64,000 nt of DNA from Actinomycetota bacterium. GTDB lineage: Bacteria > Actinomycetota > JAHEXW01. The position numbers were made by a program, and so were the translations under genes. Shown here in pieces: positions 15,490-54,141 of this stretch. The first letter of the stretch is position 1; each line of letters starts with the position of its first letter. The stretch spans positions 62,001-126,000 of the forward strand of contig JANXYU010000010.1 of assembly GCA_025355855.1 (NCBI GenBank). Reading direction: 5' to 3'. The notes beneath the pieces are model-generated. The model did no database searches and had not been told where the DNA came from. It saw only the letters and a program-made list of their open reading frames with translations.

Positions 15490-16320
15490 ATGCTATTAGA
15501 CACCTACATCCCAGCCGCATTCATCTTTCTCTACGGGCTGGCCATTGGCAGCTTTCTGAATGTGGTCATCTTTCGGCTGCCGCGCCACCAAGGGATAGCC
15601 AAAGGCGGCAGCGCTTGCCCGGGTTGCGGCAACGCGATAAAGTGGTACGACAACATTCCTGTCCTGAGCTATATCATTCTGCGAGGAAAATGCCGGGCTT
15701 GCGGCACACGCATCTCTCCTCGATACCCGGTGGTCGAATTATTAACAGCCGTGCTGTTGACGGCGATCTATTTTCAACTAGTCTGGATCGGTTCACCGTA
15801 CGGGGGCCTGGAGCCGGCTTGGACCGCGGCCTGGATTCTGCGATTGCTGGCTTACCTCTGGTTTGGCGCCGCGTTGATTGCTTGCGCCTTTATCGACGCC
15901 GAGCATCGCATTATTCCTAACCGGATCGTCTTTCCAACGTTCGTTATCGGCTTAGTCCTTTTGTTAGGCGCCAATTATCATGCTTGGACTCGGATGTTGC
16001 TAGGCATTCTCGCCGGCGGCGGCATTCCGCTCTTGCTGTTATTGCTGAGCCCACTATTGCTAAAACGGCAAGGCATGGGCATGGGCGACGTCAAACTGGG
16101 CGCGACAATGGGTTTGTTTCTGGGGTGGCAGCTGGTATTGCTGGCCATCTTTTTCGCCAGTTTGTTCGGATCGTTCTATAACTTACCAAAGATGTTCGGC
16201 GGCCCCGAAAAGCGCCGTCAGGTTTTCCCTTTTGGACCGTTCCTGGCTATTGGCGCGCTCACCGCTTTCTTCGTAGGAATGCCGATCATCACCTGGTATC
16301 TAGGCCTATTCAGCCTATAG
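15490..16320 (+). CDS. Prepilin peptidase/N-methyltransferase (A24 family)
   Basis: 276 residues from the ATG at 15490. A GTG at 15433 would place the terminator of the preceding gene inside the coding sequence and is rejected. About eight membrane segments. The N-terminal domain has the paired CPGC and CRAC zinc motifs of bifunctional PilD enzymes. The catalytic aspartates are in FIDAEHRIIP and GMGMGDVKLGA. It cleaves type IV pilins and is a plausible processor of the TadE-like protein at 3136-3549, although Tad systems often use a shorter enzyme. No ribosome-binding site or promoter is evident between the terminator and the start, so the start is less certain than the product. Confidence 0.9.
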   Translation: MLLDTYIPAAFIFLYGLAIGSFLNVVIFRLPRHQGIAKGGSACPGCGNAIKWYDNIPVLSYIILRGKCRACGTRISPRYPVVELLTAVLLTAIYFQLVWIGSPYGGLEPAWTAAWILRLLAYLWFGAALIACAFIDAEHRIIPNRIVFPTFVIGLVLLLGANYHAWTRMLLGILAGGGIPLLLLLLSPLLLKRQGMGMGDVKLGATMGLFLGWQLVLLAIFFASLFGSFYNLPKMFGGPEKRRQVFPFGPFLAIGALTAFFVGMPIITWYLGLFSL

Positions 16321-16343
16321 TTATCGGTGTGTCGCTTTACTTC

Positions 16344-16378
16344 CATTGCGAGGAGCGCAAGCGACGCAGCGACCTCCC
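16344..16378. repeat. CATTGCGAGG-type dispersed repeat, intergenic copy
   Basis: The segment starts CATTGCGAGGAGCGCAAGCG, continues with a GACGCAGC core and ends ACCTCC. GAGG and CCTC arms can pair. Related copies are inside divIVA (25178-25221, 25658-25702), inside ecfA (56872-56915) and in the spacer at 28806-28868. Confidence 0.75.
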
Positions 16379-16389
16379 GGTTGCCTTTC

Positions 16390-16504
16390 CCCTCTAAAAA
16401 TGCAGAGATGCCTTATAAGCCTTGGAGCAGACAGCCGAGCAACATGGGGGTGTTGCGCGGTTCCAGGTGGCGTTTAAGACATCTCCGCTGTAGGGTTTTG
16501 AGAG
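16390..16504 (-). ncRNA. Candidate structured RNA: long irregular hairpin
   Basis: Read on the minus strand, 5' CTCTCAAAA pairs with TTTTTAGAG, GCGGAGATG with CATCTCTGC (9 pairs, one G-U), TCTTAAACGCC with GGCTTATAAGG (9 of 11), TGGA with TCCA, and CCGCGCAACA with TGTTGCTCGG around a CCCCCA loop. Together these form one interrupted hairpin of about 115 bases preceded by a promoter and a LexA box. The shape resembles 6S-type RNAs, but no family is recognised and a small open frame crosses the same segment. Confidence 0.5.
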
Positions 16505-16511
16505 CGAACAT
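16413..16511 (-). CDS. Possible 32-residue basic/hydrophobic peptide under LexA control
   Basis: An ATG at 16511 lies inside the LexA box with AAAGG 8 bases upstream. The frame runs 32 codons to TAA: basic first half (KTLQRRCLKRHLEPR) and hydrophobic second half (MLLGCLLQGL). Size and composition recall SOS-induced membrane peptides, but the frame coincides with an RNA hairpin, so it may be fortuitous. Confidence 0.3.
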   Translation of the reverse strand: MFALKTLQRRCLKRHLEPRNTPMLLGCLLQGL

Positions 16512-16518
16512 CTGTTCG
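16505..16518 (-). promoter_or_regulatory. LexA (SOS) box
   Basis: CGAACAGATGTTCG on the minus strand matches the Gram-positive LexA/DinR consensus CGAACRNRYGTTYG at every position. It lies at about +5 to +18 of the predicted transcript, a position suited to repression. It can also form a small hairpin. Confidence 0.6.
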
Positions 16519-16528
16519 CCTTTATTCA

Positions 16529-16557
16529 ATGATACCAGATAGACAATTCTGTTGCAA
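16529..16557 (-). promoter_or_regulatory. Promoter of the orphan transcript
   Basis: Minus strand: TTGCAA (16557-16552), 17-base spacer, TATCAT (16534-16529), with TG one base before the -10 (extended -10). It lies just past the fba stop codon and points away from fba into the spacer that holds the hairpin. Confidence 0.6.
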
Positions 16558-16565
16558 TACTGTTT

Positions 16566-17423
16566 TTACGCTTTGTCGTCGCTGCCGAACAGGCGTATCT
16601 TCCTTTCTACTACCTTTTGTACCGCCTCTATCCCCAGCGGCATGTATTTATAAGGGGTGACGTTATCCGGATCATCGGCAAACTCGAGTTTCAACCCGTC
16701 ATGGAAGGCGATGCGCAGCTCGGTGCTCACATTGATCTTCGATACACCTAGCTCGATGGCTCGCCGTATTTGATCCGCCGGGATACCCGAGCCGCCGTGC
16801 AGTGAAAAATATGTCGTGACGCGTCCCGTTATCTCAGCCAAACGATCGAAATCGAGTGTCGGCGGGTTCTTATAGACACCGTGGATGTTGCCTATGGCCA
16901 CCGCCAAAACGTCGACTTTGGTCGCCTCGACAAAAGCGACCGCCTCATCCGGAACGGTCAACGTGTCGGGTGAGATCTTAATTTCTTCCGCGTGCGACTC
17001 GGACGCGCCGGTGATGTGGCCGATTTCGCCCTCCACCAGCAATCCTTTCTCATGCGCCAGCGCAACGACTTGTTTGGTAAGGCTGACGTTCTCGGCATAT
17101 GGCAACGCCGAGCCATCCAGATGGATGGATGTGTAACCGGCCTCAATGGCCTGACGGGCTTGTTCTAAATGTTTGCCATGGTCCAGATGCAGGACAACCG
17201 GGACAGCCACTGTTTCAGCTAGTGCTTTGACCTCAGCGAACGATATTGCGGGTGACATATACCCCATTTCGCCCTCGGACGTTTCGATAATCACAGGAGC
17301 GTTGAGTTTCTCCGCCGCCGCGATAATCGCTTTCGAGACCTCGAGCAGAGATGTATTGAAAGCGCCGATGGCGTAACGACCGGCGCGCGCCTTCTTATAC
17401 AGTTCAGCAGACGTTACCAGCAT
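16566..17423 (-). CDS. fba: Class II fructose-bisphosphate aldolase family protein
   Basis: A 285-residue protein. Metal and substrate sites are visible in HLDHGKHLEQA, EGEIGHITG, NIHGVYK and SLHGGSGIP, and a phosphate loop in KINVSTELR. It fits the class II (zinc) aldolases, including tagatose-bisphosphate aldolases, and the exact sugar cannot be settled from sequence. AAAGGAG precedes the ATG. It lies downstream of a PfkB-family kinase in the same direction, a pairing that supports phosphorylation of a sugar phosphate followed by aldol cleavage. Confidence 0.9.
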   Translation of the reverse strand: MLVTSAELYKKARAGRYAIGAFNTSLLEVSKAIIAAAEKLNAPVIIETSEGEMGYMSPAISFAEVKALAETVAVPVVLHLDHGKHLEQARQAIEAGYTSIHLDGSALPYAENVSLTKQVVALAHEKGLLVEGEIGHITGASESHAEEIKISPDTLTVPDEAVAFVEATKVDVLAVAIGNIHGVYKNPPTLDFDRLAEITGRVTTYFSLHGGSGIPADQIRRAIELGVSKINVSTELRIAFHDGLKLEFADDPDNVTPYKYMPLGIEAVQKVVERKIRLFGSDDKA

Positions 17424-53657: not shown

Positions 53658-53735
53658 CCCTATCGTCTCCTTTCTCACGTCCCCCACATTGCTTGCAAAG
53701 CCTACGTCAGGTATCGGTTGAAGAAGTCATGATGT

Positions 53736-54141
53736 GGGAGCAGGTCTGTAAGCCGGGTTCTGTGCTTTAGTGCTTTTAAGCGCTAAAGCGATGACCATCT
53801 ATCTAGGACCGGCGTTGCCGCCGGCCTCAAGCGACCGACCCGGGAGTCTAGGGACGGGCCGCCCCCTCGCCAAAGGCGAGCTCCCCTACACGGTCTTGCT
53901 CCAAACGGGGTTTACCCCACCAACCGGTCACCCGGCCGGCGCGTGCGCTCTTACCGCACGTTTTCACCCTTACTCCGCGTGAAAATGCGGAGCGGTACGT
54001 TTCTGTGGCACTTTCCCTAAGGTCGCCCTCGGTCGCCGTTAGCGACCGTTCTGCCCTGCGGAGCCCGGACTTTCCTCTCACGCCGGTCCGGCAGGCCGAA
54101 GCTCACCGAAACCAAAGCAAGCGGTCATCCGACCCGCTCCC
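53736..54141 (-). ncRNA. rnpB: RNase P RNA, bacterial class A
   Basis: Minus strand: the 5' arm GGGAGCGGGTC pairs with the 3' GACCTGCTCCC (helix P1). Universally conserved parts are present in order: GAGGAAAGTCCGGGCTCC, CCACAGAAACG, GGTAAACCCC, AGATAGATGGTCATC and ACAGAACCCGGCTTA. The helix just before ACAGAA (P19) is a copy of the 24-base CTTTAG...CTAAAG repeat. Catalytic RNA that matures tRNA 5' ends. Confidence 0.97.
53765..53788. repeat. 24-base CTTTAG...CTAAAG repeat forming helix P19 of RNase P RNA
   Basis: Eleven-base arms CTTTAGTGCTT and AAGCGCTAAAG around TT. Identical at 22 or more of 24 positions to the copy at 7538. Within rnpB it forms the hairpin between the AGATAGATGGTCATC element and the conserved 3' ACAGAACCCGGC. 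Confidence 0.85.

Follow-up and report, generated by a model that had tools for sequence, protein, structure and literature searches.

In the 64,000-nucleotide stretch analysed here (the window), part of a 1.34-Mb genome of 35 contigs (G000), a 245-bp spacer at 16321-16565 contains a transcription unit that probably specifies a LexA-repressed, damage-induced non-coding RNA, which would act by base-pairing through a C-rich loop and a 5' linker; we put the probability of this reading at about 0.7. The unit was compared with its counterpart in the single available genome of the same genus (G001, metagenome-assembled), and a genome of the same order (G002) was also searched. Read at the level of sequence, this comparison establishes the operator's identity, the promoter, the shape of the RNA, its terminator-like end and the lack of a conserved peptide. 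Gene calls agreed with a first-pass annotation that the spacer is convergent, the 3' ends of a prepilin-peptidase and an aldolase gene facing each other across it (Table 1).

Table 1. Features of the spacer and its surroundings, in window coordinates
Feature	Position	Strand	Remarks
Prepilin peptidase gene (Peptidase_A24)	one side of spacer 16321-16565	+	convergent
Class II fructose-bisphosphate aldolase gene	other side of spacer 16321-16565	-	convergent
-35 hexamer TTGCAA	16552-16557	-	consensus scan; TTGCGC at the same position in G001
Extended -10 TGG-TATCAT	16529-16537 (hexamer 16534-16529)	-	TGA-TATCAT in G001
Putative LexA operator CGAACAGATGTTCG	16505-16518	-	about +5 to +18; CGAACACGTGTTCG in G001
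Predicted RNA, ~129 nt	16394-16522	-	predicted ends, from promoter and terminator
32-codon frame MFALKTLQRRCLKRHLEPRNTPMLLGCLLQGL, AAAGG upstream	16413-16511	-	not conserved, judged non-coding
Unpaired 5' linker UCUCAAAACCCUACA	16489-16503	-	identical in G000 and G001
Long interrupted hairpin with 14-bp basal stem, doubling as terminator stem	16402-16488 (87 nt)	-	from folding
C-rich apical loop CCCCCA	16445-16450	-	candidate seed for G-rich ribosome-binding sites
U-tract UUUUU after the stem	16396-16400	-	intrinsic-terminator-like; UUUAU in G001

A genome-wide count of the strict motif CGAACANNTGTTYG gave six sites; the reversed control gave none, and base composition predicts about 0.26. The spacer box is the only one of the six without a protein gene after it, the other five lying upstream of recA, lexA, a Y-family (dinB-type) polymerase operon, a Cys/His-rich gene and an ORF6N gene; in addition, the near-match CGAACATATGTTCA is found upstream of ruvC. 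A looser motif, GAACN4GTTC, was dropped as uninformative, with 17 sites against 24 in the reversed control. The host encodes LexA (TIGR00498, E 1.5e-68, over cut-off), as do both related genomes. Moreover, boxes of the same kind stand before recA, lexA and the polymerase operon of G001; in G002 they are found upstream of recA and of a polymerase operon, and lexA has a variant box. Because the same motif stands at recA, lexA and the polymerase operon, the spacer box, already proposed at first pass to lie at about +5, is the organism's own LexA motif; judged by sequence, it belongs to the host's LexA (SOS) motif class and is a putative binding site for the repressor. Its arms are identical in the two congeneric genomes, and its two central bases differ (GA vs CG), as expected of a palindrome bound by a protein.

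Several genes behind boxes of this type deserve mention in their own right. The Cys/His-rich gene (104 residues, no Pfam match, HNH-nuclease-like by eye) directly follows a LexA-type box in both G000 (L070:1305-1648, contig C27) and G002 (L035:1501-1832), and is a candidate uncharacterised SOS gene. The ORF6N-domain gene at L071:985-1501 (G000, contig C33) has a similar gene at L046:959-1522 in G002, each of them at a LexA-type box. The Y-family polymerase operon is found at L068:1501-3012 (G000, contig C16), L050 (G001) and L040 (G002), and a short frame between its box and the polymerase gene, MIEEIKE in G000 and G001 and MITEISEQ in G002, may be a small co-transcribed SOS gene. At L055:1501-2148 of G002, the LexA-type box CGAACGTATGTTTG precedes a gene whose product resembles BrnT, with a score below the Pfam cut-off, and a second small gene comes after it; the two may form an SOS-controlled toxin-antitoxin pair.

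A consensus scan of 16200-16700 returned one promoter-like site, the same minus-strand TTGCAA-17-TATCAT with an extended -10 that had been noticed at first pass; as shuffled sequences give 0.4 sites on average, it is not significant alone. Alignment with G001 showed that the hexamers and their 17-nt spacing are kept while the spacer sequence has diverged, and the TG of the extended -10, one base before the hexamer, is also retained. Transcription would start near 16522, so that the operator overlaps or abuts the promoter, and both elements are kept in G001. On the plus strand, the consensus scan of the same interval found no promoter-like site that might serve an antisense antitoxin RNA, and there is no protein gene downstream of the spacer promoter as its possible target.

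The predicted transcript folds into a long interrupted hairpin with an MFE of -53.4 kcal/mol and a z-score of -5.05 (no shuffle out of 200 reached this stability), and its G001 counterpart folds with a z-score of -5.57. Five paired blocks of 14, 3, 4, 3 and 6 bp could be recognized, in line with the first-pass annotation, but the robust part spans 87 nt and reaches the 115 bases originally described only when a weak outer CCCU/AGGG pairing is included. Both genomes' sequences share the 14-bp basal stem, the small asymmetric internal loops and the apical CCCCCA loop; the U-tract of G001 is weak. Since the folding is about equally stable on the two strands, energy alone does not choose between them. 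Two changes within the consensus stems bear on the strand: C-G has become U-G, and A-U has become G-U, both of which are pairs on the minus strand and A-C mismatches on the plus strand, so pairing in the stems is preserved only for an RNA with the minus-strand sequence. A covariance search in relatives, advocated at first pass, recovered the G001 spacer with its hairpin, but the two sequences contain no compensatory double changes in their stems.

The element is syntenic in G001, lying in the same aldolase-peptidase spacer with the convergent arrangement kept. The 129-nt predicted transcript is 94% identical between the two genomes, compared to 58% for the adjoining 38 nt upstream, 53% for the 72 nt downstream and an average of 82% for coding DNA over the same contig pair. 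This jump in identity indicates that conservation starts and stops where the promoter and the terminator place the ends of the RNA. In a 52-kb comparison, 3.4% of all 129-nt segments and 6.8% of the non-coding ones are as similar as the element. The promoter hexamers, operator arms, linker and C-rich apical loop are all kept; the identity of linker and loop in both genomes is more than a mere terminator would need. Altogether, of the SOS unit making a structured RNA that was proposed at first pass, the core stands, with the organism's own LexA motif (shared with recA, lexA, the dinB-type gene and ruvC) and a promoter, operator and hairpin kept in G001, but the peptide and 6S-like readings attached to it do not.

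A competing account takes the hairpin for nothing more than the terminator, or a 3' UTR structure, of the aldolase operon, which the peptidase gene might share; the promoter and palindrome would then be a coincidence or the stem of a plus-strand terminator. The palindrome itself could alternatively fold as RNA or end plus-strand transcription. A stem followed by a U-tract in a convergent spacer fits this account, as does the plus strand, where the palindrome is followed by CTTTATT and scores as terminator-like; furthermore, no other terminator was noted for the aldolase gene. However, the expected count of the strict box in the 245-bp spacer is about 5e-5, and G001 retains the box but has a broken plus-strand T-run (CTTTCCT). 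The conserved promoter hexamers, unpaired linker and loop are likewise unneeded by a terminator. We therefore consider a terminator alone unlikely. A cis-acting antisense role of the RNA against the 3' end of the prepilin-peptidase transcript, by pairing or transcription collision, is very improbable: the convergent arrangement is present in both genomes and plus-strand read-through would be fully complementary to the RNA, but some 75 nt separate the predicted end of the RNA from the stop codon of the peptidase gene, and the conservation of loop and linker points to a sequence-specific partner elsewhere. We know of no SOS role for prepilin peptidase.

The first-pass annotation had also suggested a small SOS peptide in the size class of TisB or SidA. 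The 32-codon frame is indeed present and preceded by AAAGG, and a transcript serving as mRNA for its 32-residue product would make use of both. Nevertheless, in G001 the ATG is replaced by GTG, and one inserted base puts the sequence out of frame from about residue 13 onwards, so that the product (VFALKTLQWRCLNKPPRTAQHPHVARLSAQTGL) has lost the hydrophobic end and its second half is unrelated. The element therefore lacks the conserved small hydrophobic open reading frame of SOS type I toxins such as TisB and DinQ. Moreover, the AAAGG would fall at the extreme 5' end of the transcript, and between G000 and G001 neither strand preserves a reading frame across the element. A peptide-coding role thus appears very unlikely, and a non-coding RNA is the preferred reading.

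A covariance model of the element matched 2 of 397 genomes of the phylum, both of the genus, and a DNA search of 100 relatives likewise recovered it only in two genomes of the genus. An exact-pattern scan of genome contigs returned the G001 record JAHEXW010000006.1 only, and the same scan of viral contigs returned none. The search of G002 was negative at E ≤ 10; that genome has no aldolase match, and the synteny of the spacer is not comparable there. The RNA family is so far confined to one genus. No paralogue was found within G000, the weak matches at the 3' edge being a REP-like repeat. This repeat (16343-16388; CATTGCGAGGAGC...GCGACG.AGC) lies directly past the terminator of the RNA, has similar copies at C11:36732, C20:27840 and C20:5316 of G000, and was not seen in the G001 spacer. 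A mobile element with the inverted arms as its terminal repeats was ruled out, as the element is single-copy and syntenic in both species.

Comparison with Rfam gave no match at the locus, either at the gathering threshold or at E ≤ 10. The 6S-like shape proposed at first pass finds a parallel in the long interrupted hairpin, and an RNA of that kind binding RNA polymerase would occupy a slot not visibly filled, as 6S (RF00013) has no match anywhere in the genome at E ≤ 1. Nonetheless, such a role is scarcely credible: RF00013 has no match at the locus at E ≤ 10, the transcript of 129 nt compares with a model of 187 positions, and the fold has a 14-bp base with small asymmetric loops and no large central bubble. 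Elsewhere in the window, the class A RNase P RNA (RF00010, E 2.1e-94) lies at 53733-54140 on the minus strand.

We propose the following model for the LexA-repressed RNA. In undamaged cells, LexA dimers would sit on the operator just past the start site and block transcription. Upon DNA damage, RecA would trigger the self-cleavage of LexA, allowing the extended -10 promoter to fire and produce an RNA that ends at its own hairpin and U-tract. The RNA would most likely pair in trans with G-rich translation-initiation regions via its CCCCCA loop and linker, lowering the translation of target mRNAs during the SOS response; by analogy with the 6C/B11 RNAs, repression at G-rich start regions is the most likely outcome of pairing. 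When 48 gene starts in the window, ftsZ and most of the division cluster among them, were scanned for duplexes, no target stood clearly above shuffled controls. The best conserved duplex (-24.7 kcal/mol), close to where mraW was first called to start, falls within the final part of the gene upstream, and 9% of shuffles equal the best duplex match of the apical-loop segment. Since shuffled seeds do equally well, the ftsZ/dcw cluster (27-52 kb in the window) was rejected as a target.

The candidate SOS regulon is very small, comprising recA, lexA, the polymerase operon, ruvC and two small genes, and the RNA would be among the few units that DNA damage appears to induce in this reduced 1.34-Mb genome. 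If so, the SOS response of this uncultured actinobacterial lineage, for which no non-coding arm has been described, would gain one. The interest of the RNA lies in its being tied to neither a toxin nor a parent mRNA, and the operator, promoter and terminator-like stem delimit it to within a few bases, making a clean and testable case. At slightly less than even odds, we tentatively regard it as a purely non-coding SOS effector in the full sense: a small RNA restricted to the genus, transcribed from its own promoter under direct LexA control, with no link to a toxin, whose C-rich loop mediates its action in trans.

Among known systems, IstR is the RNA component of the toxin locus tisB, and IstR-2 belongs to the size class of roughly 100-150 nt. 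The predicted RNA resembles IstR-2 in this size class and in the putative LexA operator on its own promoter, but differs in having no toxin gene adjacent and no Rfam family match. IstR-2 of E. coli is a LexA-repressed small RNA, as cited in PMC2527527. DinR of Klebsiella is an SOS-induced trans-acting RNA under LexA, as we propose for the present RNA; RNase E releases it from the dinI mRNA, and it represses ftsZ using Hfq (PMC10907235), whereas the RNA described here has its own promoter, and, with no ftsZ pairing above background, a DinR-like route to ftsZ is without support. ChvR of Caulobacter is a small RNA with its own promoter that is likewise induced by DNA damage, but under ChvI-ChvG control and with no SOS box (PMC6237742), compared to the putative LexA box here. 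The actinobacterial 6C/B11 RNAs share with the element a C-rich loop, which in their case is reported to pair with ribosome-binding sites (PMC10470900), and 6C RNA of Corynebacterium glutamicum rises about two-fold after mitomycin C, as stated in PMC6789036, citing Pahlke 2016. However, the element has one C-rich apical loop in place of the two C-rich-loop stem-loops of 6C, and a LexA box of its own; RF01066, which is over cut-off in other genomes of the phylum, finds nothing at E ≤ 1 in G000, G001 or G002, nor at the locus. Livny et al. 2008 predicted 113 LexA-box-associated small RNA loci (PMC2527527); to such a prediction the present case adds the identity of the operator within one genome, a promoter and cross-species conservation. 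Thus, LexA-controlled small RNAs are already known (IstR-2, DinR) or predicted (the 113 loci), and what is new here is the family.
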